Shown one piece after another: positions 4,633 through 41,181 of a DNA stretch of 64,000 nucleotides; the stretch's first letter is position 1; every line of letters begins with the position of its first letter. The DNA comes from Haloarcula sp. DT43 (GTDB taxonomy: Archaea > Halobacteriota > Halobacteria > Halobacteriales > Haloarculaceae): the NCBI RefSeq assembly GCF_037078405.1, contig NZ_JAYMGZ010000002.1:62001-126000 (forward strand), read 5' to 3'. The notes below the pieces were generated by a model, which had not been told where the DNA came from, made no database searches, and saw only the letters and a list, made by a program, of their open reading frames with translations. The translations under genes were made by a program, and so were the position numbers.

Positions 4633-4676
4633 CCGGAACCACGCGGCTCAAGTCCGTTCGGCCCTAGCAGCCGACA

Positions 4677-18264: not shown

Positions 18265-18286
18265 TGAAATCTCAGTTGCTTAAAGA

Positions 18287-18300
18287 ACAAGCAAGATTGT
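18287..18300 (-). promoter_or_regulatory. Candidate cobalamin operator C at cbtBA
   Basis: ACAAGCAAGATTGT on the + strand is the same ACAA-N6-TTGT dyad as at cbiT. Read on the - strand it is followed by TCTTTAAG, a TATA-like stretch, about 17 bases before the cbtB ATG at 18264. The chelatase gene ends just beyond at 18322, so only cbtBA can be its target. Confidence 0.65.
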
Positions 18301-18321
18301 AAAACTTCCGCCTCGCCCGCC

Positions 18322-20460: not shown

Positions 20461-20470
20461 ACTTGTATTA
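20451..20470 (+). promoter_or_regulatory. Candidate cobalamin operator D between chlID and cobN
   Basis: ATACAA-N6-TTGTAT (20451-20468) contains the ACAA-N6-TTGT dyad at 20453-20466 and continues as TTGTATTA, ending 26 bases before the cobN ATG at 20496. The same site covers the first codons and probable transcription start of the divergent chelatase gene. The TATA of that gene on the other strand (ATTAAAT, about 20483-20490) lies 26 bases before its ATG. One bound protein could thus block both genes. Confidence 0.72.
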
Positions 20471-20495
20471 GTGAAAACGGAGATTTAATAACGTT

Positions 20496-23400: not shown

Positions 23401-24392
23401 TGGAGGAACTCGGTCGTCCGCGAATCGACGTGACGACGCGCGTCTCCGGCCTGTTCCGGGACGCCTTCCCCGCGGCGGCGGGCGTGGTCCACGACGCCGT
23501 CGACGCCGTCGTCGACCTCGACGAGCCCCACGACATGAACTACGTGAAGAAACACGTCGAGGAGGAGACCGACGACCTCGTGGCCGACGGGATGGACGAG
23601 AGCGACGCCCGCACCGCCGCGACGCACCGCGTGTTCACGACGCGCCCCGGCGGCTACGGCGCTGGCACGAACAAGGCCGTCGACGAGGGCAACTGGGACG
23701 ACCGGTCGGACCTCGCCGACGTGTACGTCCAGTGGGGCGGCTACGCGATGGGCTCGCGCGGCCGCGTCAGCGACGCCCACGACGCCTTCGAGCGCCGCCT
23801 GTCCTCCGTCGACGCGACCGTCAAAATCGAGGACACCGCCGAGCAAGACGAGTTCGACTCCTCGGACTGGTACGCCTTCCACGGCGGGTTCATCTCCGCC
23901 GTGACCGAGATCGCGGGCGAGGAACCGAACTCCTACGTCGGCGACTCATCGGACCCGGACAACGTCGACGTCTACACCAACGAGGAGAAGGTCCGCAAGG
24001 CGATGCGGGCCCGCGTGCTCAACCCCGCGTGGCTCGACTCGATGGAGGAACACGGCTACAAGGGCGCGGGCGACCTCTCGACCACGGTCGACGTGGTGCT
24101 CGGCTGGGACGCCACCACCGGCGTCGTCAGCGACGCGCTCTGGAACGACGTGGCCGAGCGTTACGCCTTCGACGCGGACCGCCAGGAGTGGCTCCGCGAC
24201 GTGAACCCCTGGGCGCTGGACTCCATCACGGACACCCTGCTTGAGGCCATCGACCGCGGCCTCTGGGACGCCGACGACGAGACGCGCGACCGCCTGCGGG
24301 ACCTGAATCTGGAAGTGGATGGGACCCTTGAGGCCCGCGCCAGTTCCGAGCGGGCTGTCGATTCGACGGAGGTGACTTCCGATGACGACTAA
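20496..24392 (+). CDS. cobN: Cobaltochelatase large subunit CobN
   Basis: CobN (1298 residues) is the porphyrin-binding chelatase subunit, of the BchH/ChlH superfamily, that inserts cobalt with ATP hydrolysis by the AAA+/vWA partner encoded divergently. Family signatures are VHLGTHGSLEWLPGKT (about 537-552), RTRGETIAQVLALMGVEPVW (about 935-955) and GYGAGTNKAVDEGNWDDRSD (about 1050-1070). An acidic insertion near 670-690 (TLAEGDVEGDDLDIDDLVE) looks haloarchaeal. The start MPQLGLYTATENELGAV is leaderless with respect to operator D. It overlaps cbiC by 11 bases. Confidence 0.95.
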   Translation: MPQLGLYTATENELGAVQRAAGEVDADLVVRSESDLDDEPAVEAFVDELTDADAVILWLHGAEDSMPGYERAVERLREAGVPLVVKATGDAFAVEDTSVPDEHRETVYEYLEKGGASNVANCARYLVAKYGDAAPSYDGPVTLPTEGVYHPDHPGASIEDLRATFDPAKPTVAVWFYESHWTHENTRYVDAQVRAIEAQGANALPIFCEPATDAEGQWNAERVTEEWLLDADGNPLVDAVCSSFMFSLSMDERGRSADDEGDGAADVFLDRLGVPVIQTVTTMRSRSRYDASDTGVMGFELALSVALPEFDGNVITHPISGKERTDDDADIGSAPKQHFPIEDRVDHVARLAVNWAELRHTPNHEKNVAVVLHNYPPSDDGIGTAFGLDSPESTVNLLDELDARGYELGDTTPESGQSLVERLTAQLTLDDRWVAPEDVREMSVDTVSPAQYGEWFDALDPDFRANVVEEWGDPPERPFAIPGAEFGNVLVTVQPPRGFGMDPSKVYHDSDLQPPHDYVAFYRWLRNDYEADAVVHLGTHGSLEWLPGKTVGLDGESAPDQLIDDIPNVYPYIVNNPGEGTQAKRRSYAAIVDYLTPVMANAGTYDDLADLEELADRYREAGMEDARADDGEHLAEQIRQTVDELDLAVELGIAGEIDEKADVRGPDEAGSTLAEGDVEGDDLDIDDLVERVHEYLTDVKTTQIRKGLHTMGEPPADDRLVDYLVALTRLENPGAPSLRESVAGVLGVDYDTLRNAPGEYDEALGMTYAEAADRVHETSKDLVRTLAEHDFDVPVSELEDGDSEVNMNLLVVDIDPIGDARARSGAHDDLREVLAYICEEAAPRVAGAADEIPRTADALAGEYVPPGGSGAPTRGGVDLLPTARNFYTLDPRKVPAKTAWDVGSEVAAGVVERHESDEGGYPEEIGVVVWGTPTVRTRGETIAQVLALMGVEPVWSDAGRVEDVEPIPLEELGRPRIDVTTRVSGLFRDAFPAAAGVVHDAVDAVVDLDEPHDMNYVKKHVEEETDDLVADGMDESDARTAATHRVFTTRPGGYGAGTNKAVDEGNWDDRSDLADVYVQWGGYAMGSRGRVSDAHDAFERRLSSVDATVKIEDTAEQDEFDSSDWYAFHGGFISAVTEIAGEEPNSYVGDSSDPDNVDVYTNEEKVRKAMRARVLNPAWLDSMEEHGYKGAGDLSTTVDVVLGWDATTGVVSDALWNDVAERYAFDADRQEWLRDVNPWALDSITDTLLEAIDRGLWDADDETRDRLRDLNLEVDGTLEARASSERAVDSTEVTSDDD

Positions 24393-25095
24393 CACAGACG
24401 GTGAGGCGAACAGCGAGGGCGACTTCGAGGAGTACGCCGACCTCGGCGCGACCACGGAGAACGCGATGGACATCGCCGAGACGTCGATGGACCGCGTCCG
24501 CAGGCTCGTCTCCGACGAGACGCTCGCCGACCGCATCCGCCAGAAGTCCGTCCACGCCACCGGCGACCCCGAGTTCCAGCACCTCGTCCGATTCACCGGC
24601 GCGGACGAGGACGAGCCGGTCCGCGCGGGGGCGCGCGCCGTCCTCGACGAACGGCCCATCGTCACCGACATCACGATGGTCAAAGCGGGTATCACCGGCC
24701 GCGGCCACGACTGTCCGGTGCGGAAGGCCATCGGCAACGGTGCGGAGTTGGCCGCCGAGACCGGGATGACCCGGACCGCCGCGTCGGTGCTCGAACTCGA
24801 CCGGGAGGGCGTCTACGACGGTGCTATCGCTGTCGTGGGCAACGCGCCGACGGCGGCGCTCGCGCTCGCCGACTGCATCGAGGACGGCACCCGGCCCGCG
24901 GTGGTCGTCGCGACGCCGGTCGGCTTCGTGAAGGCCGCAGAGAGCCGGGAGCGACTCCGCGAGGTGGCGGCCGAGCACGGCGTCCCGACCATCACGAACG
25001 TCGGCCGCCGCGGCGGGAGCGGGCTGGCCGCCGGGCTGACGAACGAACTGGTGCACGTCGCCAGTGACGTGCGCGAGGGGGTGGTCGATCTATGA
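24382..25095 (+). CDS. cbiC: Cobalt-precorrin-8 methylmutase CbiC
   Basis: CbiC/CobH (237 residues) moves the methyl group from C11 to C12, giving cobyrinate or hydrogenobyrinate. The catalytic histidine sits in the motif IRQKSVHATGDPEFQHLV (about residues 52-69). The blocks PIVTDITMVKAGITG, GNAPTAALALADCIEDG and PAVVVATPVGFVKAAESRE match the family closely. The first 30 residues are an acidic extension. It is translated from within the cobN end, so CobN and CbiC are coupled. Its stop overlaps a 25-codon mini-ORF that leads to cbiE. Confidence 0.93.
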   Translation: MTTNTDGEANSEGDFEEYADLGATTENAMDIAETSMDRVRRLVSDETLADRIRQKSVHATGDPEFQHLVRFTGADEDEPVRAGARAVLDERPIVTDITMVKAGITGRGHDCPVRKAIGNGAELAAETGMTRTAASVLELDREGVYDGAIAVVGNAPTAALALADCIEDGTRPAVVVATPVGFVKAAESRERLREVAAEHGVPTITNVGRRGGSGLAAGLTNELVHVASDVREGVVDL

Positions 25096-25169
25096 CCTCC
25101 CCCTCGGAGAGAGCGAGCGGGGAGGAACGACCCGCGAGCCGCGAGGGAGTGGTCTCTCTGAATGACTGA
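25092..25169 (+). other. 25-codon mini-ORF and hairpin linking cbiC to cbiE
   Basis: An ATG at 25092 overlaps the cbiC stop and opens a 25-codon frame that ends at 25167-25169, just inside cbiE. The stretch contains a stem CCTCCCC (25096-25102) with GGGGAGG (25119-25125). The composition (repeated GCGAG units) is like short palindromic repeats elsewhere in the window. It may be an insertion that separated two formerly overlapping genes. Confidence 0.35.
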
Positions 25170-25926
25170 GGACGACGACTACGACCTCGATAGCGGGCCG
25201 GACCCCGCCGCCCTCGCGGCGAGCGCGCCCGAAGACCCCCACGCCGACAGACCGGTCCACGCCGTCGGCATCGGCCCGGGAAACCTCGACTTCCTCACGC
25301 CACGGGGCGAAGACGCGATTCGGGAGGCCGACGTGGTCGTCGGCTTCGAGACGGTCGTCGATTTCGTCGCCGACCGGACGGAGGCCGACCTGCTGCCCTG
25401 TGGCTACCGGGACGAACTCGACACGCTCGACGCCTTCGCCGAGCGCGTGGCCGCCGGCGAGCGCGGGACGGCCGTCCTGATGGGCGACCCGAACCACTCG
25501 GGCTACCAGTTCGTCGGGAAGGTCCAGCGGGCCGTCGACCGCCCCGTTCGCGTCGTGCCGGGCATCTCGTCGCTCCAGGTCGCGGCCAGCCGCGCCCGGA
25601 CGCCGATGGAGGACACGACGTTCGTCACGCTGCACAAGAGCGGCGACCTCGCCGACGACCGCGCCCGCCTCCGCCGCGACGTGGGCGAGCGCCACCTGCT
25701 CGTCCTCCCGCGGCCGTTCGACCTGATGCCCGAGGACGTCGCGGCCGAATTGCTCGACGCCGGCGGCGACCCAGACCTGCCGGCGCTGGTGTACGAGCGC
25801 CTCACCCACGCCGACGAGGCCCGCACCGCGACGACGCTGGGCGACCTCGCCGACGACGCCGGCGGCGATAGCCGTGAGGACACGCGTTTTTCGGACCTCT
25901 CGGTGCTAGTCGTCCGTCGGGACTGA
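25162..25926 (+). CDS. cbiE: Cobalt-precorrin-7 C5-methyltransferase CbiE
   Basis: A 254-residue class III methyltransferase acting on C5 of the corrin ring, the partner of CbiT at the other end of the cluster. After a 32-residue acidic leader the core has HAVGIGPGNLDFLTPRGED, LMGDPNHSGYQFVGKVQRAV and VVPGISSLQVAASRARTPME. DTTFVTLHKSGD and LVLPRPFDLMPEDVA fit CbiE rather than CbiF or CbiH. It is the last gene of the cobN-cbiC-cbiE transcript and converges on cbiX2. Confidence 0.87.
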   Translation: MTEDDDYDLDSGPDPAALAASAPEDPHADRPVHAVGIGPGNLDFLTPRGEDAIREADVVVGFETVVDFVADRTEADLLPCGYRDELDTLDAFAERVAAGERGTAVLMGDPNHSGYQFVGKVQRAVDRPVRVVPGISSLQVAASRARTPMEDTTFVTLHKSGDLADDRARLRRDVGERHLLVLPRPFDLMPEDVAAELLDAGGDPDLPALVYERLTHADEARTATTLGDLADDAGGDSREDTRFSDLSVLVVRRD

Positions 25927-26141
25927 GTGCGCCAGCGTCGGGCGGTCTTCGGCTATTCTCCGTCGCTTCGAGACACGCTCGACTGCTGTGGCCGGGCGGC
26001 CGCTATCCGAGCGAGCGACGCGACCGAGGATGTGCCGGCCGGCGACCGCGAGCGGTCGAGGGCGTTCGAAGCGGTGAAGATACCGTTCTCGCTGGCTGCT
26101 CCGTCCGAACAGGCTACTGTCGGGAACCCACCAACCGACGC

Positions 26142-26915
26142 CTAGTCGCCCTCGCCGTCGGTCGCCATCGGCCGGTTCGTCGCGGCCAGGGTCGCCTCGA
26201 ACGTCCGCGGCGTGCCCGCGTCGGCCATGGTCCGCGCCGTCTCGACGGCAGTGGCGGCGGCCTCGGTGACGAGCGGGTGGTCGTCGAGCGTGTCGGCGTA
26301 GGCGAGCCCGCCCCTGTCGAGGTCGAGTTTGGCGGGAATCTGCGTCTCGGTGGCGTCGGTGGGCGCGAGAAAGAGCGGCACGGCGACGGCGTGGTCGCGG
26401 GTGAGGTTGTACCGCACGCACTCGACGGCGGGGTTCTGGAGCAGATAGCAGGGTTCGACCTCGCCGAAGGCGGTCCGCTCGCGCAGGCGCTCGGCGTGAT
26501 ACTCCGTCACCTGCCGCTGGTACGGCTTGCCGCTGGAACCGAAGGCGACGAGCGCGACGGAGGCGTCGCCGGTCTCGGGCACCGCCGCGGCGGCACGATC
26601 CCGGAGCGCCTCGGTGACGAGCGGGCTGCGCCCGACCGGCTCGCAGTAGTGCGTCTCGGCGTCGACCGCGTCCAGCGCCGCCGGCACGTCCGCCACCGTC
26701 GTGTGGTCGTGAGCGACGGTCATCGGCAGCGCGAACACGCGGTCGGCGTCGATGGCTACCAGGTCGTCGTGTAACTCCCGACGGGGTTCGTGGTCGTAGG
26801 TCAGCACCGTCACGTCGGCGGCTACCCCGCGCTCGCGCAGCCGGCGAGCGTGTGTCTCGTAGGGCGCAGCGCGTGACGTGTCCCGACCGATGAGCAGGAG
26901 TGTGTCGTGTGGCAT
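26142..26915 (-). CDS. cbiX: CbiX-like chelatase family protein (second copy)
   Basis: A 257-residue protein of the CbiX/sirohydrochlorin chelatase fold. It starts MPHDTLLLIGRDTSRAAPYE in place of the usual VGHGS, with HDHTTVADVPAALDAV in the first half and LVAFGSSGKPYQRQVTEYHA, AVAVPLFLAPTDATETQIP in the second. The canonical metal-ligand histidine of the first strand (GHGS) is absent, but AHDHTT offers histidines. It has its own operator E and is transcribed toward cbiE. It may be a chelatase with changed specificity or a cobalt-handling protein. Confidence 0.75.
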   Translation of the reverse strand: MPHDTLLLIGRDTSRAAPYETHARRLRERGVAADVTVLTYDHEPRRELHDDLVAIDADRVFALPMTVAHDHTTVADVPAALDAVDAETHYCEPVGRSPLVTEALRDRAAAAVPETGDASVALVAFGSSGKPYQRQVTEYHAERLRERTAFGEVEPCYLLQNPAVECVRYNLTRDHAVAVPLFLAPTDATETQIPAKLDLDRGGLAYADTLDDHPLVTEAAATAVETARTMADAGTPRTFEATLAATNRPMATDGEGD

Positions 26916-30332: not shown

Positions 30333-30527
30333 ATGAATCTCTCGCTCGTCATCGTCGCGACGATGACCGGCGTCACCACCGGCGTCCTGTTCGGACTGCT
30401 CGACGTTCCTATCCCGGCCCCGCCGAACCTCGCCGGCGTCATGGGCATCCTCGGCATCCTCGTCGGCTATCGCCTCGTCGAGTACTTCGACGTCGGCGTC
30501 AGTCTGCTGTCGCTGCTGAAGGTCTGA
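30333..30527 (+). CDS. XapX domain small membrane protein
   Basis: A 64-residue protein with two hydrophobic helices separated by a proline-rich turn: MNLSLVIVATMTGVTTGVLF, then VPIPAPPNLAGVMGILGILV. The APPNLAGVMGILGILVGYRL segment matches the XapX family, named after a small protein beside xanthosine phosphorylase in bacteria. Function is unknown. The nucleoside hydrolase in this window lies 4.6 kb away and is not in the same operon. Confidence 0.83.
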   Translation: MNLSLVIVATMTGVTTGVLFGLLDVPIPAPPNLAGVMGILGILVGYRLVEYFDVGVSLLSLLKV

Positions 30528-30572: not shown

Positions 30573-31289
30573 TCAGTGGTCCGCGTGTTCGGTTCCGTTC
30601 CGGTGCTGGTGGCCGCTCTCGGTCCCGCCGTGGCCGGTTCCGGTCGAATCGTGGTCGTGGTCGCGGGTGAGCCGCCCGTGGTACGTATCCAGCGTCCGTT
30701 CGAGGAGCGCGGTCCGCGTCTCGTGGCCCTCGACGACCGGTTCGACCCAGCGCGACTCGGTCCGCCAGTACCCCATCACGTCGCCGGCGGGTTCGATTAC
30801 CTCCGCGTCGAGGCCTTCGACCCCCCAGTCGTCCGTGTAGGCCTGGATGAACGAGACGACGACCGTCTCGATGCCGGCGGCGAGTTCGTGGCTGCGCGTG
30901 GTCTCCGTGACGTAGGTCAGCCTGACCCGGTCGTCCTCGACGGCCAGCGAGTCCACGTCGACGAACCACTCCCGGAGGTGGGACTCGAACGCGGCCAGCC
31001 GGGTCCCGGGGTCGGCGTCGAGGTCGCCGCCGTCGGCGTCCCCCTCGCCGTGGTCGTCGTGGGTGTGCTCGCCGTCGGCGTGCGTGTGCCCGCTCTCGTC
31101 GTGATGTGGTTCGCCGGCCGTCCGTGCGGGCGTCTCAGGCGCGTCGGGCGTCGCCGTGGACCCGCTGCCGACGCCCGGCTGGCTGTTCCGGGTGCTGCCG
31201 AGGCCGCTACAGCCGGCGCTGGTCGCCACCGCCAGCGCGAGGGTTCCGAGGAACCCCCGCCGCGTCCGTCGCTGGCTGGCGTCGGGCAT
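30573..31289 (-). CDS. Histidine-rich Tat-exported lipoprotein
   Basis: A 238-residue protein with a twin-arginine lipoprotein signal: RRTRRGFLGTLALAVATSAG followed by the lipobox cysteine (AGC, about residue 27). Two histidine/acid-rich stretches flank the folded part: HHDESGHTHADGEHTHDDHG (about 63-82) and a C-terminal DHDHDSTGTGHGG...HQHRNGTEHADH. The central domain (about 95-205) has ESHLREWFVDVDSLAVEDDR and VVSFIQAYTDDWGVEGLDAE and was not recognised. The His-rich tails suggest binding of zinc, nickel or copper outside the cell. It follows the PHP-domain gene by 3 bases, so the two are an operon. Confidence 0.75.
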   Translation of the reverse strand: MPDASQRRTRRGFLGTLALAVATSAGCSGLGSTRNSQPGVGSGSTATPDAPETPARTAGEPHHDESGHTHADGEHTHDDHGEGDADGGDLDADPGTRLAAFESHLREWFVDVDSLAVEDDRVRLTYVTETTRSHELAAGIETVVVSFIQAYTDDWGVEGLDAEVIEPAGDVMGYWRTESRWVEPVVEGHETRTALLERTLDTYHGRLTRDHDHDSTGTGHGGTESGHQHRNGTEHADH

Positions 31290-31292
31290 CGC

Positions 31293-34200
31293 TTACGTCC
31301 CCCGCCGCGCGGCGAGCAGCGCCGCGCCGACGAACGCGAGCAACGCGACGACGGCGGTGAATCCGGGACCGGACCCCGCGGTCGTCTCCGGCGGCGCGGT
31401 CGCGGTGTCGCCGCCCGGTGTCGCCCCGCTCTCGGTCGCCGGCGTCGCGGTCACCGTGGCTCCGCCGGACTCGCCGTCCCCGTCGGTTCCGGACTCGGCC
31501 TGCTGGCCGGCCGAAATCCAGACCGGGCTGGTCAGCGCCCGGTCGCCGTCCTCGTCGACGACGCGGAACGCGACCCAGGCGTTCCCGTCGACGGCCACGT
31601 CGGTGCTCATCGTGTCGGTGGTCCCGTCGAGCGTGACGTTGGCGACGGTCGTCCCGTTCCGGATGACGTGGGCGTAGGCGAGCTCGTCGAGGTTCCGGAC
31701 CGTCGCGGACGCCGTAACGGAGGACCCGGCGGTGGTGTTCACCGTCTCGCCGGGCATCCGGTCGTCGACGGTGAACTGGACGGCCGGCCCGTACGTCGCG
31801 TAGGTGTGGCCGTCCTTGACCGACTGGGCCCACTTGTCGGCGGTGACGGGGCCCTCGACGTAGGCCCGCGTGCGGGCGCTGCCGTACTTGACCGGGAAGC
31901 ACTGCGAGCAGTGGTCGTCGCTGACGCCGGTCGCGGCGATGTCGTAGCCCTGGTTCCAGAGGTTGAACAGCCCCTGGACGCTGCTGGCGTCACCGGCCCC
32001 GTACTCGCCGTTGTACGCCTCGATGGCGTCGACCATCGGGAGGTACTCGTCTTCCTGTCCCGGCGCTTCCGAGAGGTCGACGAAGCGGTCACCGGGGTGG
32101 TTTATCTGGAAGACCGTCGCGTTGTGTCGCGCGCGGGACTCCTCGATGAACTCCACGAGCGTCCCCTCGGAGTCGACCATCTCCTCGCCGTGCATCGGGT
32201 AGGGATTGAAGTGCCCGAGGTCACCGGTGGTTATCTCCTCGCTGCGGATGAACAGCACGTCGCGCGCCTCGGTCTGGGACTGCATCGAGCCCCAGCCACC
32301 GATGGCGTTGTGGTCGGAGATGAACACCGCGTCGACGCCCGAGGACTTCTGGATGGCGACGAAGTTGTCGATGGGCGTCGTGCCGTCGAAGCTGACGCTG
32401 CTGTGGGCGTGCGGGTCGACGCTGACCCAGTCGTTCTCGCTGGGGTCCAGTTCCTCCGTGAACGTGGCGTCGACCGTGACAGCCTCGCCCGGCGTCACGG
32501 AGATGTTCTTGCGGACCGGCTCGGTGTTGTACTCAGTCCCGTGGTTCAGGACGAGCGTGTAGTTGCCCGGCGGCAGTTCGAACGAGGCCGTCCCGGCGGG
32601 CGTCGTCTGCGTGTAGACGGTCCTGACCGCCGTGCCCTCGTTGAGCACCGTGATGCGAGCGTCGGCCGGGCTGACCTGGCCGCTGTCGTTCAGCGACGCC
32701 GTGACGTTGACCGGCGCGGGACCTTCGAGCGTATCGAAGGCGACGCTCGTCGTCTCGCCGTCGGCGACGGTCACGGTCTTGGACTCGGAGGGCGCGAAGC
32801 CCTGCGCCTCCGCCCGGAGCGTGTACTCGCCGGCCGGCAGGTCGAGGTCGAAGGCCCCTTCGTCGGTCCCGACGGTGTAGGTGAACGCGCCCTCGTCCGT
32901 CGAGGCGGTGACCGTGGCCCGCGAGACGGACTCGTTGCCCGCGCTCTCGACCGTGCCGGTCACCGTGCCCACGTCGGCACCGGTCCGCTCGTTGTAGTAC
33001 TCGCTGGTCGCGCTACTGGTACCGTCCGCGCCGACGAAGAAGGCGAACTCGGCGGACTGGGTCTCACCGGGGTCGAGGCGGTGTTCGAGCCACGGGTCGA
33101 CCCACGTCGAGGAGGCCGTGTACGAGGTGAACGAGCCGTTCCCGCCCCAGACGCCGTAGCTGACGCGGTCGCCGGTGAGCGCGGCCCACGGCTGGCTGAG
33201 CGTGTCGGCGCTCACCGGCGGGGCGCGCGTCTCTTCGATGGTCCCCGACCCGGGGAGCCAGGTGGACTGGCCCTCTGAGCTGAGCGCCGCCCCGCTCTGG
33301 AGGCGCTCGGAGTCGTTGACCGGGAGGCGCTGGTCGCCGCCGTTCTCCATCGTCGTGTTTATCCAGACGTGGCTGGAGTCGGCCGGCAGCGTGTACGTCG
33401 TCGTGACGGAGACGTTCGGACTCGTGCTGACGTGGCCGGTCGCGGTGACGACCGCCGCGCCGTTCGGCCCGGTGGCGTTCTGGCGCTCGAAGGACTCGTA
33501 GACGGGCCACGTGCCGAAGTTGTTGAACGCGAACTCGGCGACGCCTATCTGGTCCGTCGTCAGCCCGTACGCGTTGGCGTCGTAGATGCCGCCCGGGAGC
33601 GTGCCGAAGGGCCCGTTGCTCTCGGTCCCGATGGCGACCGCTATCTCGCTGTTTTTCAGGACGATGGTCTCGTTCGCGGGCGTCTCGCCGCCCTTGAGCC
33701 GCTCGCCGGTGACCGCGACCGGGCTCTCGGGCCGTTCGACGTGACCCGAGGCGGCCAGCCACTTCACCGTCCGGAACAGGAACGGCCGGGTGTCGGTCTG
33801 CTGGTGTTCGGCCTGCCACTCGTCGGTGAGGTAGGTCGTCAGCGACTTCTGGCTGCCGAAGGCGACGACGCGGCCGTTCTGGCCGATGTCCCACGTCGCG
33901 GCCGCACCGACGATTCGCTCACCGCGCGGGAAGCTTTCCTCGGTGGTCGAGTACGTGTACTCGTAGGTGTCCTCGTCGCCGTACAGCAGCGGGGCCTGCG
34001 TCCCGTTGGCCGTGTCGGTCACGTTGATGCTGACGCCGTCGTACTCCACCGTCTCGACGCCGTCGGTGATGGGGTGGTCCCCCGTGTTGTGCAGGATTAC
34101 CCGCCACTCGTAGTCCTCGACGGTCTTGTTGGTCGGGTCCTGGATGTTGCGCAGCCACTTGTCGCTCTCGCCGTTGAAATGGAGCCCGTACGGGTCGGTG

Positions 34201-34742
34201 ATGTCGTTGAGCTTCCCCGCGTTACCCTGCAGCGGCGAAGTCCAGTCGGCCACGACGAACAGGCTGCCGCCGTTGCGGACGTACTCGTCCAGCGCCTCCT
34301 GTTCGGCCTCGCTGTAGGCGGTCTGTGGCACCGGGATGACGACCACGTCGTAGTCCCCCAGCCCGCTGGCAGCCGAGTCGCCCCACGAGGTCAGTCCCCC
34401 CGTGGTGGAGCGTTTCGTGTCCACGTCGTACCCGCGCTCGCTGAGCCGGTTCGCGAACTCCGTGAACGTCGAGCCCTGGTGGCTCCCGTCGATGAGCACG
34501 TCGACCCCCGCTCCGCTCGCGTTGAGGTCGACCGAACTATCAGGTCTCGGGCAGTCCCCGTCGAGCTGACAGGTGACGGCACCGCCCGATGCTGTCTGTG
34601 CCGCTGTCTGGCTGTTCGCCGTCGACAGTCCGTTTCGCTCGCCCGGTACAGCAGCGGCGCTTCCGATGAATCCGGTGCTGATGACCGAGACGACGAGCAG
34701 TACGCAGAGCGTCGCCGACCGAAGGTGGTGTCTGTCCATCAC
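31293..34742 (-). CDS. Surface-anchored CehA/McbA-type PHP metallohydrolase, PGF-CTERM
   Basis: A very large secreted protein of 1149 residues. A signal peptide (about 1-31, VLLVVSVISTGFIGSAAA) is followed by a DUF4350-like domain (about 70-330, GVDVLIDGSHQGSTFTEFAN), a beta-rich domain, two carboxypeptidase-regulatory-like beta-sandwiches (about 600-760), and a PHP hydrolase domain (about 770-1010). PHP metal motifs are visible: DPHAHSS (HxH, about 774), FISDHNAIGG, NHPGD and SDDHCSQC. A Thr/Ser-rich linker leads to the C-terminal PGFTAVVALLAFVGAALLAA plus arginines, the archaeosortase PGF-CTERM signal. Its substrate is unknown; CehA/McbA relatives cleave phosphoesters or aryl esters. The downstream lipoprotein gene may be a partner. 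Confidence 0.85.
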   Translation of the reverse strand: MMDRHHLRSATLCVLLVVSVISTGFIGSAAAVPGERNGLSTANSQTAAQTASGGAVTCQLDGDCPRPDSSVDLNASGAGVDVLIDGSHQGSTFTEFANRLSERGYDVDTKRSTTGGLTSWGDSAASGLGDYDVVVIPVPQTAYSEAEQEALDEYVRNGGSLFVVADWTSPLQGNAGKLNDITDPYGLHFNGESDKWLRNIQDPTNKTVEDYEWRVILHNTGDHPITDGVETVEYDGVSINVTDTANGTQAPLLYGDEDTYEYTYSTTEESFPRGERIVGAAATWDIGQNGRVVAFGSQKSLTTYLTDEWQAEHQQTDTRPFLFRTVKWLAASGHVERPESPVAVTGERLKGGETPANETIVLKNSEIAVAIGTESNGPFGTLPGGIYDANAYGLTTDQIGVAEFAFNNFGTWPVYESFERQNATGPNGAAVVTATGHVSTSPNVSVTTTYTLPADSSHVWINTTMENGGDQRLPVNDSERLQSGAALSSEGQSTWLPGSGTIEETRAPPVSADTLSQPWAALTGDRVSYGVWGGNGSFTSYTASSTWVDPWLEHRLDPGETQSAEFAFFVGADGTSSATSEYYNERTGADVGTVTGTVESAGNESVSRATVTASTDEGAFTYTVGTDEGAFDLDLPAGEYTLRAEAQGFAPSESKTVTVADGETTSVAFDTLEGPAPVNVTASLNDSGQVSPADARITVLNEGTAVRTVYTQTTPAGTASFELPPGNYTLVLNHGTEYNTEPVRKNISVTPGEAVTVDATFTEELDPSENDWVSVDPHAHSSVSFDGTTPIDNFVAIQKSSGVDAVFISDHNAIGGWGSMQSQTEARDVLFIRSEEITTGDLGHFNPYPMHGEEMVDSEGTLVEFIEESRARHNATVFQINHPGDRFVDLSEAPGQEDEYLPMVDAIEAYNGEYGAGDASSVQGLFNLWNQGYDIAATGVSDDHCSQCFPVKYGSARTRAYVEGPVTADKWAQSVKDGHTYATYGPAVQFTVDDRMPGETVNTTAGSSVTASATVRNLDELAYAHVIRNGTTVANVTLDGTTDTMSTDVAVDGNAWVAFRVVDEDGDRALTSPVWISAGQQAESGTDGDGESGGATVTATPATESGATPGGDTATAPPETTAGSGPGFTAVVALLAFVGAALLAARRGT

Positions 34743-35086
34743 TTCCTGTACCGTATCGAGAGTATATAGTTAAAATTTACCCTGACGGACTATTTCTCGA
34801 TACTGACTGGATTCTGTAACGAACTCTCGGCCCGGTATCGCCGCCGCGTCGTGTCCCCGCTTCCGGGGTCGGGCGCAGGCCCGACTGTCCCTTGGTATCG
34901 CACCGCTCGGCCCGTACAAGAGGATTGGGGCGGCCACACCTGGTTTGTCGGCCACACATTCCGACACACCGCTGTGTGGCGCGACGGCGGCCGACAAACG
35001 TCCCACAGACCCCCTCCGCGAGGCGCACACGTGTGACGGTCAGTCCGTACCAGCATTTAATATCCGATGGAGGAAACGTCGGGGAT
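34743..35086. other. Divergent promoter region with nested inverted repeats
   Basis: The 344 bases between the PHP hydrolase and the nucleoside hydrolase carry no gene. Two structures stand out: GTCGGGC-GCAG-GCCCGAC (34868-34885), and a nested one with outer arms GTTTGTCGGCC (34943-34953) and GGCCGACAAAC (34989-34999) around inner arms GCCACACA (34951-34958) and TGTGTGGC (34973-34980). TTTAATAT at 35056-35063 is the likely TATA element of the rightward gene. An AT-rich stretch at 34760-34780 may serve the leftward one. Confidence 0.55.
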
Positions 35087-36013
35087 ATGCCACGGAAAGT
35101 GTTCTTCGATACGGACCCCGGCTGCGACGACGCGGTCATGCTGGCGATGGCGCTCGGCCACGACGCTATCGACGTCGTCGGCCTCTCGACCGTCTGCGGG
35201 AACACGACCATCGAGAACACGACGCGGAACGCCCACGCGATACTGGAACTGGGCGGGTACGACGTGCCGGTCGCCCGGGGCTGTGGCCGGCCGCTGGTCG
35301 ACGACCTCGCCACCGCCGAGTGGATTCACGGCGAGAACGGACTCCGCGGCGACCTGCCCGCCGTCGACGGCGAGACGCGGGACGTCCACGGGGCCGACGC
35401 AATCGTCGACGCCGCCCGCGAGCACGGCGACGACCTGACGATTGCGGCCGTCGGCCCGCTCCCGAACCTGGCGATTGCGCTGGCGAAAGAGCCCCGCTTG
35501 CCCGACCTGGTCGGGGACATCTATCTGATGGGCGGGGCCGCGATGACGAGCGGGAACGTCACGCCGATGGCCGAGGCCAACTTCCACAACGACCCCGCGG
35601 CGGCCAGCCGCGTCCTGCAGGACGCCGCCCCGAAGATGGTCGGCCTGGACGTGACAAATCGCGCCACCGTCTCCCCGGAGTTCATCGAGTCGTTCCGCGC
35701 GGCCGGCGGCGTCCGCGGGACCATCGCCGAGTGGCTCGACTACCGGCCCGACTCCGGGACCTACCCGCTGGCCGACGCGCCGGCCATCCACGACGCCGCC
35801 GTCGTCGCCGACATCGTCGACGACTCGGTGCTCGGCTTCGAGGAGTACTACCTCGACGTGGACACGACCGGCGGCCCCTGCCACGGCGCGGTCATCTGTG
35901 ACGAACACGGCACGACCGACAACGACCCCAACGGCCGCGTCGCCGTCGACATCGACGTGGCTCGCTACCGCGAGGTCCTCGAAGCCGGCGTCCGGGCCTA
36001 CGCCGCCGAGTGA
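35087..36013 (+). CDS. Inosine/uridine-preferring nucleoside hydrolase family protein
   Basis: A 308-residue enzyme that hydrolyses the N-glycosidic bond of ribonucleosides. The calcium-binding motif DTDPGCDDA is at residues 8-16 (VFFDTDPGCDDAVMLAMALG). LPNLAIALAKEP, YLMGGAAMTSGNVTPMAEAN and FHNDPAAASRVLQ are further family blocks, with the catalytic-site NDP and the late aspartate in IHDAAVVAD. The ATG at 35087 is preceded by a TATA-like box at 24-31 bases. It sits beside sugar-oxidising genes, so the released pentose may enter catabolism; that link is inference. Confidence 0.9.
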   Translation: MPRKVFFDTDPGCDDAVMLAMALGHDAIDVVGLSTVCGNTTIENTTRNAHAILELGGYDVPVARGCGRPLVDDLATAEWIHGENGLRGDLPAVDGETRDVHGADAIVDAAREHGDDLTIAAVGPLPNLAIALAKEPRLPDLVGDIYLMGGAAMTSGNVTPMAEANFHNDPAAASRVLQDAAPKMVGLDVTNRATVSPEFIESFRAAGGVRGTIAEWLDYRPDSGTYPLADAPAIHDAAVVADIVDDSVLGFEEYYLDVDTTGGPCHGAVICDEHGTTDNDPNGRVAVDIDVARYREVLEAGVRAYAAE

Positions 36014-36044: not shown

Positions 36045-37220
36045 CTATTCGTAGGTGTGGACGCTCCCGGTGGTGTTGTCCGCGATGTAGTCCCAGTCGT
36101 AGTCGACGCCCAGTCCGGGACCGTCGGGGACGCCGACCGTCCCGTCGGAATCGACGGCGTCCATCAGGTCGGAGTAGCCGCCCTCGTACACCGGCGGCTG
36201 GGTGTTCTGGCAGTCCGGGTGGACCAGCGCCATCTCGTAGTAGTTGGAGTTGCGGCAGGCGGCGATGCAGTGGCGCTGGGCCGGGCCTGGCGCGTGGAAC
36301 TCCACGTCCAGCCCGAACGCCTCGGCCATGCGGGCCACCTTGATTGCGCCGGTGATGCCCGCGTCGTACTCGGGGTCGGCCCGGAGGAAGTCGGTGGCCT
36401 CGCTGGCGGCGAAGTCCGACTTCAGCTCCAGGCCGCGGACGTGTTCGGTCTGGAGTATCGGTGTGTCGAGTTTCTGGGCCAGTTTCCTGTGGGCGTGCTG
36501 TGAGATGCCGCCGTCGCGGAAGGGGTCCTCGTACCAGAAGAAGCCCTCCTCGTCGAGCGCGCGACCCAGTTCCAGCGCGTCGGCGAACGTCTCCAGTTCG
36601 CAGGCCGGGTCGTGCATCAGGTCCATCTCGTCGCCGACGGCTTCGCCGACGGCGTGGACCGCCGCAATCTCGCGGTCGAGATTCCGGGACTCGTCACCGC
36701 CGCCCCAGCCGTGTATTTTGAAACCGCCGAACCCTTCGTCGCGACACTCTTCGGCGAAGTCCGCGAAGGCCTTGGGGGAGTCCAACCCCCCGGCGTCGTC
36801 GCCGTGGTAGGTCGAGGCGTACGCCGGGATACGCTCGCGGTAGGTCCCCAGCAGCTCGTGGATGGGCGCGTCGTAGTACTTGCCCGCGAAGTCCCACAGC
36901 GCGATGTCGATGGGGCCGATGCCCATCCGGTCGTACTTCCGGAGCGCGCGCTTGCACTCCGACCAGTGTTTCTCGCGTTTCAGCGGGTCCTTGCCGATAA
37001 GGTACTTGGCGACGATGTTGTACTGGGCGGCCGCCGGGGAGTTCCCGCCGACGTACTCGCCCGTGATGCCCTCGTCGGTGTGCACCCGGACGCCGAACAG
37101 TTTCCGCGTCGTCGTCTCCCCCGGCGTGTACACCAGATTGAAGCCGTGTTCGTCGGTCCCCACGTCTTCGAGCGGGTACTCGAACTCGCGGCTCTCGATT
37201 TTCGTTATCGTTGGCGACAT
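36045..37220 (-). CDS. Mandelate racemase/enolase-superfamily sugar-acid dehydratase
   Basis: A 391-residue enzyme of the enolase superfamily. The N-terminal capping domain begins MSPTITKIESREFEYPLEDV. The barrel has the catalytic-lysine motif FGGFKIHGWGGGD (KxH, about residue 170), and metal ligands in DLMHDPACE (about 200), FFWYEDPFRD (about 227) and LQTEHVRG (about 252). A downstream His is in FHAPGPAQRHCI. Members remove water from aldonic acids. The neighbouring xylose dehydrogenase makes xylonate dehydratase a good guess (as XacD of Haloferax), but specificity cannot be read from sequence. It lies on the same strand as the lactonase-like, dehydrogenase and ALDH genes. Confidence 0.85.
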   Translation of the reverse strand: MSPTITKIESREFEYPLEDVGTDEHGFNLVYTPGETTTRKLFGVRVHTDEGITGEYVGGNSPAAAQYNIVAKYLIGKDPLKREKHWSECKRALRKYDRMGIGPIDIALWDFAGKYYDAPIHELLGTYRERIPAYASTYHGDDAGGLDSPKAFADFAEECRDEGFGGFKIHGWGGGDESRNLDREIAAVHAVGEAVGDEMDLMHDPACELETFADALELGRALDEEGFFWYEDPFRDGGISQHAHRKLAQKLDTPILQTEHVRGLELKSDFAASEATDFLRADPEYDAGITGAIKVARMAEAFGLDVEFHAPGPAQRHCIAACRNSNYYEMALVHPDCQNTQPPVYEGGYSDLMDAVDSDGTVGVPDGPGLGVDYDWDYIADNTTGSVHTYE

Positions 37221-37334
37221 CCGTGTGACGTTCCGGGGTCGGGCTCTTAAAGCTACCCCGCCGCAAACGCGAGCCGGCGACGCGGGCGGCTGTTTGAACC
37301 CCTATCCGCTTTATCGAATGCGGCGTCGCCCCGG

Positions 37335-38201
37335 CTACTCCTCGCCCAGCGCGCCAAGTCGGCGGATGCCGGGATCGCCCAGCCGCACCGAACAGCCGAC
37401 GTAGAGCGGTTCGATGACCCTTGGGTACTCGAAAGACGCGGCGTGTTCGTGGAGCACTTTCGGGTCGCCGCCCTCGCCCTGCCACATGTCGTGGTGCGAG
37501 GGGAGCAGGCGGGACAGCCCGAGTTGGTTCGCGGCCTCGATGATTTCGTTCTCGTCCATGTACCACTTCGTCCGGACGCCACAGTCCGGTTCGGGCTCGT
37601 AGATGGAGCCGACGGTGCCGAACGCCAGCGCGCCCGCGTCAACGTCGAACCGCTCGCCGACCTCGGCGAACGCCTCAGCCGGCCGGCTGTCGCCGGCGTG
37701 GAAGAACGTCCCGGCGTCGTGTTCGACGACGTAGCTCACCGGCTCGATGGCGTCGGGGTCGTTCGCGCCCGCGACGTGGACCGTGAAATCGCCGACCTCG
37801 AACGCGTCGCCGACCGCGACCTCGTTTCGCCGGCTGTCGGACACCCGAAGTTCGCCGTCGTAGTCCGGCGACGCGTACGACGCCGCGGGCGCGTACAGGT
37901 CCGCCCCGAGGCCCTCGACCAGCGGGCCGTAGGACGGCGGGTGCATGTGGTCGATGTGTTCGTGTGTGACGAGTGTGGCGTCACACTGTGTGGCGTCTGT
38001 GGGGTCCATCGGAACCGGAATCATCCGGACGAGAGTCGGCGGGTCGCCGGTCCCGAAGTAAGGGTCGATGTACAGCGTCGTCGTCCGTGACCGGAGCACG
38101 AAGCCGTTACAGCCCAGGTACCAGACCACGACGCCGTCGCCGGGGTCCGTCGCTTCCACTTCCTCGCGGACGAACCAGTCGTCCCACGTTGACTGCACCA
38201 T
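37335..38201 (-). CDS. Metallo-beta-lactamase-fold hydrolase, UlaG-like
   Basis: A 288-residue protein starting MVQSTWDDWFVREEVEATDP. The MBL motif THEHIDHMHPP (HxHxDH) is near residues 78-88. Further ligands are in FFHAGDSRP and PSHHDMWQGEGGD. LGCNGFVLRSRTTTLYIDPY near the N-terminus and the overall layout match the UlaG group, which includes L-ascorbate-6-phosphate lactonase. It is placed between the xylose dehydrogenase gene and the dehydratase gene on the same strand, so a sugar lactonase role is attractive but unproven. No conventional SMP-30 lactonase is visible in this window. Confidence 0.82.
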   Translation of the reverse strand: MVQSTWDDWFVREEVEATDPGDGVVVWYLGCNGFVLRSRTTTLYIDPYFGTGDPPTLVRMIPVPMDPTDATQCDATLVTHEHIDHMHPPSYGPLVEGLGADLYAPAASYASPDYDGELRVSDSRRNEVAVGDAFEVGDFTVHVAGANDPDAIEPVSYVVEHDAGTFFHAGDSRPAEAFAEVGERFDVDAGALAFGTVGSIYEPEPDCGVRTKWYMDENEIIEAANQLGLSRLLPSHHDMWQGEGGDPKVLHEHAASFEYPRVIEPLYVGCSVRLGDPGIRRLGALGEE

Positions 38202-38244
38202 ACCCCGGGCTACACCTGGCGGGACAAAAAACCCCGCGGCGACA

Positions 38245-39327
38245 TCACTCCAGGTGAACCGTCGACTCCGTCTCGGAAGCCTCGTAGACGGCTTTGATAG
38301 TCCTGATATCGACGAGCCCGTGCTCGCCGTCCGCGTAGGGGTCGGTGTCGGTCAGCAGGCAGTGGGCGAAGTACTCGAACTCCTCTTCCATCTGGTCGAC
38401 CTGCTCGAAGTCGACGTCGACCGTCGTGCCCTCGTGGGACAGCTGGAGCGCGCGGTCGTCCCAGGGGTAGAAGGCCGGTTCGACCCGGACCTTCCCTTCG
38501 GTCCCGAGCACGGAGATGTGGCTGTCGAGGTGGGCGTTCTGGCTGGCGGTACACACCGCGTACACGTGGCCGGGGAAATCGAGCTGGAACGCGCCGTGTT
38601 CGTCGGGGACGTCCGCGAACTCCGCTTGCACGGAGGCGACCGTGCCCCGGACGGCCACGGGGTCGGCGTCCAGCAGGAACCGACTCGTGTTCAGCGGGTA
38701 CAGGCCGATGTCCATCACGGCACACCCGCCCGAGAGCTCCCAGTCTAACCGCCACTGGTCGGGGTCGGGGACCAGTTCGAGGATGGGTTCGGTCATGTTG
38801 CCGTGGACGAACAGCGGCTCGCCGATGTACCCCTCGTCGATGAGGTCCTTCGCCCGCCGGACGGCCGGCTCGGTGTGCATCCGGTAGGCGACCATCAGCG
38901 TCGCGTCGTGCTCGTCACAGACCGCGACCATCTGCTCGGCGCGCTCGACGGTGGCCTCCATCGGCTTCTCACAGAGGATGGCCTTGTCCAGTTCCGCGGC
39001 CGTCTCGACGAACGGGAGGTGCCGGGCGTTGGGGGTGACGATGTAGACGGCGTCGTAGGCGTCGCTCGCCGTCCCGTCGTGGAACTCCTCGTAGGTGAGC
39101 GCGTGCTCGACCGTCTCCGAACCGGCCGCGACGTCGGCCGCCTTCTCGCGGTCGCCGCTGACCAAGACCGTCGTCTCACAGAGGTCCCCGGCGTCGACGG
39201 CCGGCATCGCCTGTTCGGTGGTCCACCACCCGACGCCGACCATCGCGAACCGGACCGGGCTGTCTGTCTCTGTCCGCTCCTGCCAGTCTCGACGGTCGAA
39301 CCCGGCCGTGAGTGCGTCGACGTTCAT
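38245..39327 (-). CDS. xacA: D-xylose 1-dehydrogenase, Gfo/Idh/MocA family (XacA-like)
   Basis: A 360-residue NAD(P)-dependent oxidoreductase starting [20 protein letters not shown]. The dinucleotide loop is [18 protein letters not shown] (about residues 27-44). [20 protein letters not shown] and [16 protein letters not shown] (catalytic-lysine EKP motif) follow, then [20 protein letters not shown]. From memory these blocks agree closely with the xylose dehydrogenase of Haloferax and Haloarcula. The enzyme makes xylonolactone from xylose, the first step of the oxidative pentose route. It is leaderless: AAACATAATA lies 24-33 bases upstream. Confidence 0.87.
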
Positions 39328-39350
39328 GCCGCCGGCATCGACCGGCCCGA

Positions 39351-39360
39351 TATTATGTTT
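39351..39360 (-). promoter_or_regulatory. TATA-like element of the xylose dehydrogenase gene
   Basis: On the reverse strand AAACATAATA lies 24-33 bases before the ATG at 39327, in an otherwise GC-rich surrounding. It predicts a leaderless transcript for this gene and possibly for the lactonase-like and dehydratase genes below it. Confidence 0.55.
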
Positions 39361-39735
39361 TGCGTTGCCACACTGCTGTCGGTTCGAGCCGTTCCCGGGG
39401 GAGCGAATGCTAGTTCACCTATCGAGCACGCTGTCCCGATTAGTGAGATATTCGTTCGGTATGATGGGACTACTGTCTGCGCGAACCGGCGCGTGGTCGC
39501 TGCGCGGCGTTCGTCCGGCCGAGTTCAGAGCGCCGTCTCACGGGCGTTTTCAGCGCTACCCGGCCGCCCGACCGGTCCTGCGCATCGAGAATAACGACAG
39601 TACAACCGTTACGGGATGCGTTCCGGAATGGTGAACGGGCGGTCCCAGGCGGCCACGTTCGCCCCTACGTTCCGCGCCAAAAGTGCGCCCCGCCGTCCAC
39701 AGAGTCGTGACGGTTCGGGAGCGTGTCAGCCTCGA
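39361..39735. other. Intergenic region between xylose dehydrogenase and ALDH genes
   Basis: I see no supported gene in these 375 bases. Short open frames on both strands have arginine-rich, shadow-like translations. The stretch may hold activator sites for the xylose dehydrogenase gene, but no clear dyad was found. Confidence 0.5.
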
Positions 39736-41181
39736 TTAGCTGTTGCGGTACACCGTCTTGATGTAGCTGAAGAACTCCAGACCGGCGTCGCCCTGCTCGC
39801 GGTAGGTGTTCGTCGAGGAGCGCTTGAGGCCGCCGAAGGGAACGTGCAGTTCCAGCCCGGTCGTCTTCTCGTTGACCTTGACCACGCCGGACTCGGAGCG
39901 CTCGATGAACTCGTTTTCCTCCTCGATTCGGTCGGTCACGATGCTGGCCGAGAGCCCGTAGTCGATGTCGTTGGCGACCTCGACGCCCTCGTCGAAGTCG
40001 GAGACGGGAATGACGGCCAGCACCGGGCCGAACACCTCTTCCTGTGCGATGCGCATGTCGGGCTCGACGTCGGAGAAGACGGCCGGCGAGATGAAGTTCC
40101 CGGCGTCGTACTGGCCGCCGGTGAGTTCCTCGCCGCCCGTCTCCAGGGTCGCGCCCTCGGACTGTGCGATGTCGACGTACTCCAGGCTCCCCGCGAGTTC
40201 GTCCTTACTGACGTGGGGACCCATGTCCGCCCGGTCGAGGCCGTTCCCGATTTCGAGGGACTCGGCGTAGTCGACGACGGCCTCGAGGAACTCGTCGTAC
40301 ACGTCCTCGTGGACGATGGCCCGGGACGTGGCCGTACAGGCCTGGCCCGTGCCCCCGAAGGCCCCGGCACCGACGATGTCGGCCGCCTTGTCCACGTCGG
40401 CGCTCGGCATGACGACGGTCGGGTTCTTCCCGCCCATCTCCGCCTGGGCGCGCTTCCCGTTGTTCGTCGCCTGGTCGTAGACGTGCTCGCCGACGGCGGC
40501 GCTGCCGGTGAACGACACCACGTCGACCTCGTCGTGCGTGGTCAGCCGCTCGCCGACCTCGCTCCCGGGGCCACAGACGAGGTTGATAGCGCCGTCCGGA
40601 ATGCCGGCCTCGTCCAGCGCCTCGACAATCATCGTGCCGACGGTCGGAGACTGCATGGCGGGCTTGATGACGACGGTGTTCCCGACCGCGAGCGCCGGCG
40701 CGATTTTCCAGGCCGGAATCGCGATGGGGTAGTTCCACGGCGTAATCAGCGCCGCGACGCCCATCGGCTCCTTCTTCGTCTGTAGGCCGGCGCGGCCGCC
40801 GCTGGGCTGTTTGACGGTGCCGCCGAAGTCTCGGGCCTTCTCCGCGTAGTAGTAGAAGATGTCTATCGCCCGCTGTACCTCGCCCTCTGCCTCCCCGAGG
40901 GGCTTCCCTTCCTCCCGGGTCAGCGTCTCCGCCAGCTCGTCTTTCCGGGACTTCAGGATTTCGCCGGTCTCGCGCAGGATGGCACCGCGCGCCGGCCCGG
41001 ACATCCCGGCCCACTCGTCCGTCGCGTCCGCCGCGGCCGCGACCGCCTTGTCGGCCTCGGCTGCCGAGGACACCGGAACCGTGCTGACCACGTCGGTCTC
41101 GTCCGCCGGGTTCGTGACGTCCTGTGTCTCCCCGCTTCCGGTCCACTCGCCACCGATATAGTTCTCGTACGTCTGCGTCAT
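39736..41181 (-). CDS. xacF: NAD(P)-dependent aldehyde dehydrogenase, alpha-ketoglutarate semialdehyde type (XacF-like)
   Basis: A 481-residue ALDH. The catalytic cysteine is C282 in GGTGQACTATSRAI and the general-base glutamate is in AQAEMGGKNPTVVM (about 248). Cofactor segments are LITPWNYPIAIPAWKIAPAL and VSFTGSAAVGEHVY. The C-terminal KTTGLELHVPFGGLKRSST and FFSYIKTVYRNS fit the group that oxidises alpha-ketoglutarate semialdehyde. That reaction is the last step of the oxidative pentose pathway, so linkage to the xylose dehydrogenase 400 bases downstream supports the call. The gene symbol rests on context and memory of Haloferax. A weak TATA (AAGTATC) lies about 26 bases upstream. Confidence 0.83.
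   Translation of the reverse strand: MTQTYENYIGGEWTGSGETQDVTNPADETDVVSTVPVSSAAEADKAVAAAADATDEWAGMSGPARGAILRETGEILKSRKDELAETLTREEGKPLGEAEGEVQRAIDIFYYYAEKARDFGGTVKQPSGGRAGLQTKKEPMGVAALITPWNYPIAIPAWKIAPALAVGNTVVIKPAMQSPTVGTMIVEALDEAGIPDGAINLVCGPGSEVGERLTTHDEVDVVSFTGSAAVGEHVYDQATNNGKRAQAEMGGKNPTVVMPSADVDKAADIVGAGAFGGTGQACTATSRAIVHEDVYDEFLEAVVDYAESLEIGNGLDRADMGPHVSKDELAGSLEYVDIAQSEGATLETGGEELTGGQYDAGNFISPAVFSDVEPDMRIAQEEVFGPVLAVIPVSDFDEGVEVANDIDYGLSASIVTDRIEEENEFIERSESGVVKVNEKTTGLELHVPFGGLKRSSTNTYREQGDAGLEFFSYIKTVYRNS

Follow-up and report, generated by a model that had tools for sequence, protein, structure and literature searches.

A co-inherited gene pair for a surface PHP metallohydrolase and a His-rich lipoprotein, set beside nucleoside genes in Haloarcula

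The gene pair and its distribution

In a 64,000-nucleotide stretch of the genome of Haloarcula sp. DT43 (contig NZ_JAYMGZ010000002.1, positions 62,001 to 126,000 of the forward strand; hereafter the window, numbered from its first letter), two adjacent genes encode a large surface protein of the PHP metallohydrolase superfamily and a histidine (His)-rich lipoprotein. Both lie on the minus strand, the open reading frame (ORF) of the PHP protein running from 34742 to 31293 and that of the lipoprotein from 31289 to 30573, 3 bases apart. The pair unites a recognisable enzyme superfamily, surface signals, tight spacing, co-inheritance, retention of His in the lipoprotein and a nucleoside-related context at two loci. 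We propose that it is a co-inherited cassette for nucleotide scavenging at the cell surface, with a metal-binding partner, a reading that in our judgement could equally well hold or fail. The better-supported frame of this proposal is the scavenging of nucleotides at the surface, linked to the catabolism of nucleosides and ribose; the metal-partner role is a more tentative part of it. No paper on a PHP/His-rich lipoprotein gene pair was found in the open-access literature, as judged by title or abstract start. The features of the pair are the following.

31293..34742, minus strand: surface PHP metallohydrolase, 1149 amino acids (ORF; GTG start, alternative ATG at 34739; 16 near-full-length orthologues)
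33951..34463, minus strand: N-terminal GIFT/GATase-like region, residues 94-264 (ABC_transp_aux over its cut-off; OST48_N and DUF4350 below theirs)
32736..32966, minus strand: CarboxypepD_reg repeat, residues 593-669 (the better of two stretches in the PHP protein)
31515..32429, minus strand: CehA/McbA-type PHP catalytic domain, residues 772-1076 (NF038032, motif residues)
31302..31382, minus strand: PGF-CTERM surface-anchoring signal, residues 1121-1147 (TIGR04126)
30573..31289, minus strand: His-rich lipoprotein of the twin-arginine (Tat) type, 238 amino acids (ORF, orthologue search)
31209..31289, minus strand: twin-arginine signal and lipobox, residues 1-27, Cys27 (sequence motif, 16/16 orthologues)
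31050..31106, minus strand: His-rich linker segment, residues 62-80 (composition, orthologue alignment)
30678..30998, minus strand: conserved core domain, residues 98-204 (distant relatives in numerous haloarchaea)
30576..30680, minus strand: His-rich C-terminal tail, residues 204-238 (composition, orthologue alignment)

Full-length orthologues of both genes are found in the same 16 of 342 genomes of the order, namely 15 of Haloarcula and one, G316, of another genus of the same family, and no full-length orphan of either gene was detected in these 342 genomes at the thresholds used. A genome was scored as a carrier by its best matches (E below 1e-30 for the lipoprotein, near full length for the PHP protein), the best 8 first-look candidates per genome being scored in the lipoprotein search and the best 2 in the PHP search. 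Remote relatives of the lipoprotein core, partial PHP relatives in five genomes (G283, G361, G165, G032 and G381) and paralogues of the N-terminal domain in three others (G000, G091 and G201) were dropped from the counts. The two genes are adjacent in all 16 carriers, with a spacing of +3 bp in 14, of -4 bp (an overlap) in one and of +4 bp in one. A search of 146 genomes of the family returned the same 16 carriers for the PHP gene, and profile searches matched 4 of 392 genomes of the phylum for the PHP protein and 14 of 293 genomes of the order for the lipoprotein, all of them Haloarcula carriers. An earlier note on this DNA, made from the sequence alone, had called for a co-occurrence check in other haloarchaea; the pairing is strongly supported by these counts, and the distance of 3 bases that it gave between the two ORFs agrees with their coordinates. 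Given their tight spacing, the two genes are probably co-transcribed and would form a co-inherited cassette. The closest named relatives at the locus are Haloarcula salina, sebkhae, japonica, argentinensis, vallismortis, mannanilytica and amylolytica (two N-terminal peptide patterns). Around the ADH gene of seven Haloarcula non-carriers no clean empty site was seen, other neighbours being present there.

The PHP surface protein

The CehA/McbA metallohydrolase model NF038032 scores 208.6 bits on residues 772-1076, against a cut-off of 80, and the residues of the PHP motifs are present (H778, H780, D810, H811, E835/E836, H844, H882, D942 and H944). The motifs HAH, DHN, SEE, GHxN, NHP and SDxH are invariant across six aligned rows, among which are a 35%-identical relative and a part of the G316 copy; those among the motif residues that would bind metal can be proposed by comparison with the PHP superfamily. 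NF038032 describes a broad family: the window's genome has one further match over the cut-off (110.2 bits), and matches of that strength also occur in 4 of 14 control genomes. The Pfam model of the superfamily, PF02811, stays below its gathering cut-off (19.8 vs 26.4 bits), the domain being covered by the NCBIfam CehA model instead. At the C-terminus, the PGF_CTERM model TIGR04126 reaches 29.1 bits against a cut-off of 24.5 and Pfam PF18204 remains under its own (11.8 vs 18.8), while the haloarchaeal surface-glycoprotein signal TIGR04207 is weak (20.6 bits, under the 24.6 cut-off). The earlier description of a 1149-residue PGF-CTERM protein with a complete PHP metal site is thus borne out by NF038032, TIGR04126 and the motif residues. 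A sequence search of the PDB with the PHP protein gave no match, and structure prediction of residues 60-1085 from an 8-row alignment yielded a mean predicted local distance difference test (pLDDT) score of 36.6, too poor for a fold search.

G283 encodes a further PHP surface protein, whose C-terminus is calcium-loop-like (L062 7269-9311); there, a gene for a ZIP-like metal transporter (4179-4910), as read from the sequence, lies two called ORFs away. This relative was considered as a second pair and rejected, since no lipoprotein relative was found in the 15 kb read and its C-terminus differs.

The His-rich lipoprotein

The lipoprotein begins with RR..RRGFLG..SAGC, and RRG[FV]L[GS] followed later by GC is found in 16/16 orthologues. 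Because the Tat model TIGR01409 is below its cut-off (12.3 vs 16.7), the label of Tat lipoprotein rests on the visible motif. Compared with a His background of 1.9% in the window, His is enriched in the tail (8 of 35 residues; binomial 3e-7), in the whole linker (7 of 70; 4e-4) and in the His-rich part of the linker (6 of 18; 8e-7), the last being a stretch chosen after inspection. None of the other 54 window proteins, as called by a simple gene caller, has more than 4 His per 34 residues. Of the two His-rich tails first described, the His richness stands along with the motif, but one of these tails is an internal linker between the lipobox and the core, which leaves a single C-terminal tail.

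The core, of about 107 residues, is the most conserved part of the protein, and the His-rich segments are fast-evolving and variable in length. Among the 15 related Haloarcula rows, and as percentages given without a significance test, His pairs are 85% identical in the linker vs 63% for other residues and, in a comparison of the same kind, 89% vs 72% in the tail, whereas in the core the figures are 86% and 92%, i.e. with no preferential His retention. In the available part of one report, two PHP phosphatases were barely active without added Mn, Co or Ni (PMC10816263), which makes a metal need of the PHP enzyme plausible. Since His is kept in fast-evolving segments and such phosphatases need added divalent metal, a metal-binding role of the lipoprotein is compatible with its sequence. 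The same excerpted source points out that metal could be sequestered by a poly-His tag (PMC10816263), in which case the lipoprotein would be a metal competitor and not a donor. We find it improbable that the His segments are flexible hydrophilic spacers without metal function and that the core is the partner of the PHP enzyme, in a structural role or in substrate binding. Their variable length, the single His in the linker of G316, the stronger conservation of the core and the 14 core relatives without His-rich tails described below would suit such spacers, but His is preferentially conserved inside otherwise variable segments and the tail is His-rich even in G316.

Pfam searches with the lipoprotein and two remote core relatives gave nothing over cut-off, a PDB sequence search with the lipoprotein gave a single chance match (E 0.37), and the structure predicted from an 8-row alignment had a mean pLDDT of 47.5, too poor for a fold search. 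Among the 326 genomes that lack the pair, 104 gave a weak lipoprotein match; in 90 of them the match extends over 60 or more core residues, mostly at 22-35% identity, the 14 left out touching fewer than 60, mostly in the signal region. Eleven pair carriers also hold a second, remote core relative. Most of the core relatives read are small and show no obvious signal, some are other lipoproteins (L064, L065), and the His-rich tail is absent in all 14 that were checked (L017-L030), with at most 3 His per 34 residues. The earlier note had taken lipoprotein homologues that regularly occur without the PHP protein and without His-rich tails as evidence against the pairing. Remote core relatives of this sort are common, so that such homologues do exist at the level of the superfamily (90 of 326 genomes; 14 relatives without tails), and not among orthologues. 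In two Haloarcula loci a core relative of 121 amino acids adjoins an oxidoreductase-like gene and small conserved genes (L060 5341-5706, L061 5522-5887), and a small core relative is also found beside an oxidoreductase-like gene in G182 (L063).

A nucleoside context at two loci

The main functional clue, which the first description of the pair had missed, is its nucleoside and ribose context. In the window the neighbouring features are as follows.

34743..35086, no strand: divergent intergenic region with an ACACACC/CCACACATTCC/GACACAC element (8 Haloarcula sequences aligned)
35087..36013, plus strand: nucleoside hydrolase of the iunH/rih type (PF01156, E=1.7e-82; divergent from the PHP gene)
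36045..41181, minus strand: pentose/D-ribose oxidation genes (family profiles), comprising the next four
36045-37220, minus strand: enolase-superfamily dehydratase (below all curated dehydratase cut-offs)
37335-38201, minus strand: metallo-beta-lactamase (MBL)-fold lactonase-like protein (family scan)
38245-39327, minus strand: Gfo6 pentose dehydrogenase (569 bits vs 350)
39736-41181, minus strand: 2,5-dioxovalerate dehydrogenase (801 bits vs 750)

The iunH gene is adjacent to and divergent from the PHP gene in 15/15 Haloarcula carriers, and a close iunH orthologue (86-100% identity) is present in exactly these 15 among 142 genomes of the family, the set used for the iunH and dehydratase counts (146 in the PHP search). 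In six of the 15 loci (G020, G177, G238, G131, G157 and G218) iunH is followed on the same strand by the gene of a 5'-nucleotidase lipoprotein of 562 amino acids, whose C-terminal domain (5_nucleotid_C) was identified by Pfam in two of the six and in the others by 90-98% identity; in the other nine, iunH and the dehydratase gene are neighbours. Within the limits of the stretches read, relatives of the pentose genes lie beyond iunH at the other Haloarcula loci too, the MBL gene being uncalled in G327, and we infer that the window dehydratase is a ribonate enzyme. Between iunH and the PHP gene, the direct-repeat-like ACACACC/CCACACATTCC/GACACAC element is conserved, most weakly in L069, and is a possible operator common to both genes. 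Elsewhere in the window's genome there are a 56%-identical copy of the 5'-nucleotidase and a PnrA-type operon of a Bmp protein, an ATPase and two permeases (G000:C1, L099).

In G316 the pair stands directly after the genes of a Bmp/PnrA substrate-binding lipoprotein, an ATP-binding cassette (ABC) ATPase and two permeases and faces a cytidine deaminase gene, with PNP_UDP-type phosphorylases flanking the region. Six other genomes of its genus were searched, four of which have the permease, and in 4/4 of these the same operon and the cytidine deaminase are separated by a gap of 157, 140, 154 or 86 bp without any gene (G268, G119, G198 and G195, respectively). The simplest reading is that the pair was inserted into a gap that is otherwise empty in the congeners of G316, the alternative being loss in the congeners. 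Linkage to genes of nucleoside uptake or catabolism is therefore seen in 2/2 independent contexts, Haloarcula and G316. Its place next to genes of nucleoside uptake or breakdown makes a role of the pair in the use of nucleotides as food probable.

Proposed mechanism and competing explanations

According to the mechanism that we propose, the PHP protein would be exported and anchored by its PGF-CTERM signal, and would most likely be a divalent-metal phosphoesterase that cleaves nucleotides or short oligonucleotides, freeing nucleosides outside the cell; homology establishes the enzyme class, and gene context suggests the substrate. The lipoprotein would be anchored beside it, and its His-rich linker and tail, to judge from their composition and from His retention, may bind divalent metal and concentrate it locally for the PHP site. 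The nucleosides would be imported and presumably split by IunH into base and free ribose, which the pentose genes next door could oxidise to 2-oxoglutarate by the pathway known in Haloarcula, the link of that pathway to nucleosides being our suggestion. An extended version, in which the pair is a mobile two-gene cassette of a surface PHP nucleotidase and its own extracellular lipoprotein metallochaperone within a route from the surface to the tricarboxylic acid (TCA) cycle (nucleotide, nucleoside, ribose, 2-oxoglutarate), appears unlikely to us. If true, such a surface-to-TCA-cycle route would explain nucleoside degradation in Haloarcula without the known pentose bisphosphate pathway, and the genetic tie between a secreted metalloenzyme and a His-rich lipoprotein of its own would bear on the extracellular metal supply of secreted metalloenzymes.

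Several observations weigh against the main proposal, nucleotide scavenging at the surface with a metal-binding partner. Identity of the ADH marker is 93-98% for the 14 other Haloarcula carriers vs 66-85% for those 10 non-carriers that have a match, so that, by ADH identity, the Haloarcula carriers look like one clade; co-occurrence there therefore counts as one event, and only two independent contexts are left. In G316, the PHP gene (L056 8509-11727) has two in-frame TGA codons in an otherwise open frame, and this copy is therefore broken or mis-sequenced; the lipoprotein linker has only 1 His in 52 residues, with 7 in 29 in the tail. Relatives of iunH at 71% and 67% identity lie in G191 and G283 at loci without the pair, and the dehydratase gene, present in 53 of the 142 genomes, has a much wider distribution than the pair. 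The score of the PHP protein on NF041577, the equivalog model of the 3',5'-nucleoside bisphosphate phosphatase, a PHP nucleotidase, is 19.5 bits, under the required 400, and its PDB profile matches are not significant, with E values of 0.09 and 0.27. The characterised CehA/McbA members named in the accessible part of a review are carbamate hydrolases and not nucleotidases (PMC8292978). Finally, genes of cobalamin metabolism neighbour the pair in Haloarcula, the window having CbiX and CobN at distances of 3.7 and 6.2 kb from the lipoprotein gene, and with such neighbours a cobalt role is possible.

The pair could instead encode a surface esterase/amidase, or a phosphoesterase for another substrate (a carbamate, a surface glycoconjugate phosphate or a phospholipid), with the nucleoside neighbours as an inherited accident, an explanation that we regard as possible though on the doubtful side. 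It would fit with the best curated family being CehA/McbA, whose named members in the excerpted review are carbaryl hydrolases (PMC8292978), with the existence of just two known independent contexts, and with the GIFT-like and CarboxypepD_reg domains, which exceed the needs of a simple nucleotidase. However, nucleoside genes are present in both contexts, the G316 pair fills a gap that is gene-free in 4/4 congeners, and CehA is proposed in the same partial source to have spread under selection by carbaryl use (PMC8292978), so that carbamates need not be the ancestral substrate of the family.

The cobalamin genes are relevant to another explanation, in which the lipoprotein serves mainly in metal uptake or buffering (zinc or cobalt) for the cell and not as a chaperone of the PHP enzyme, their linkage reflecting a shared metal demand. 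The genes concerned, by Pfam, are these.

17351-18264: cobalt-transporter-like CbtA and CbtB
18322-20460: Mg-chelatase-like ChlI/VWA protein
20496-24392: CobN
26142-26915: CbiX protein

A CobN relative lies within the stretch in 9/10 other Haloarcula loci, the stretches of the tenth and of G125 ending short of that position. This proximity to CobN, CbiX, CbtA and CbtB, and the preferential keeping of His in variable segments, would be expected of a metal-uptake protein, but the strict adjacency to the PHP gene in two different loci argues against it, as does the fact that no cobalamin gene was recognised in 19 kb of G316 (where not every ORF was scanned). On this latter ground a cobalt role was set aside, and we consider cellular metal uptake or buffering as the main task of the lipoprotein unlikely to be correct. 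The cobalamin genes span 17351-26915 of the window, with tetrapyrrole-methylase-like genes further upstream.

Relation to known systems

Like CehA/McbA enzymes, the PHP domain is over the NF038032 cut-off, and His positions described as important in CehA in the part of the review at hand resemble the HxH and later His motifs found here, as read by eye and unaligned (PMC8292978). Unlike them, it belongs to a 1149-residue PGF-CTERM surface protein with GIFT-like and CarboxypepD_reg domains, a His-rich lipoprotein partner and nucleoside genes. With PHP nucleotide phosphatases (NF041577; PDB 2yb1/2yb4 and 3e0f/3o0f, the sole PDB entries reached by profile) the protein has HxH and DH motifs in common, but the similarity is far below membership (19.5 of 400 bits; E 0.09-0.27). 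These PDB entries we take to be PHP nucleotide phosphatases with nucleotide ligands; the known PHP nucleotide phosphatases are single-domain enzymes. In its proposed function, to break down nucleotides or DNA outside the cell as nutrients, the PHP protein resembles surface 5'-nucleotidases (5_nucleotid_C, UshA/Nt5e-like) and a surface nuclease of haloarchaea, Hvo_1477 (PMC3929857); the domains are unrelated, 5'-nucleotidase or thermonuclease there vs PHP here.

An oxidative D-ribose/pentose pathway has been described in Haloarcula, according to an excerpt of PMC8551123 (citing Johnsen et al. 2020). As in that pathway, genes for Gfo6 and dioxovalerate dehydrogenase, together with dehydratase and lactonase candidates, adjoin iunH, but in the same excerpt the pathway is described for free pentoses and not for nucleosides (PMC8551123). 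The genomes of 19 halophilic archaea are said, in the available text of another study, to give no clue to nucleoside degradation, and a FucA* homologue is highlighted there that occurs in halophiles of this kind, 9 species of Haloarcula, Haloplanus and Halohasta among them (PMC9700705). For this reason the present locus is worth testing: with its putative surface phosphoesterase, nucleoside hydrolase and oxidative ribose pathway, it is a concrete candidate for a nucleoside route in Haloarcula.

Other neighbouring genes

On the lipoprotein side of the pair, one further small gene recurs.

30333..30527, plus strand: XapX-domain small protein (TIGR03510, 68.1 bits vs 27.8; convergent with the lipoprotein gene)

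This XapX gene adjoins the lipoprotein gene in the window and in 10/11 other Haloarcula loci, being uncalled in G327; a XapX gene is also near the pair in G316 (L056 5530-5724) and in 3/4 of the congeners, which are without the pair (L096-L098). On the iunH side, two lipoproteins are encoded between the 5'-nucleotidase and dehydratase genes (L113 2525-5080, with similar ORFs in L114), one matching Iron_transport/DUF7350 and the other DUF7405 in the Pfam run on L113.

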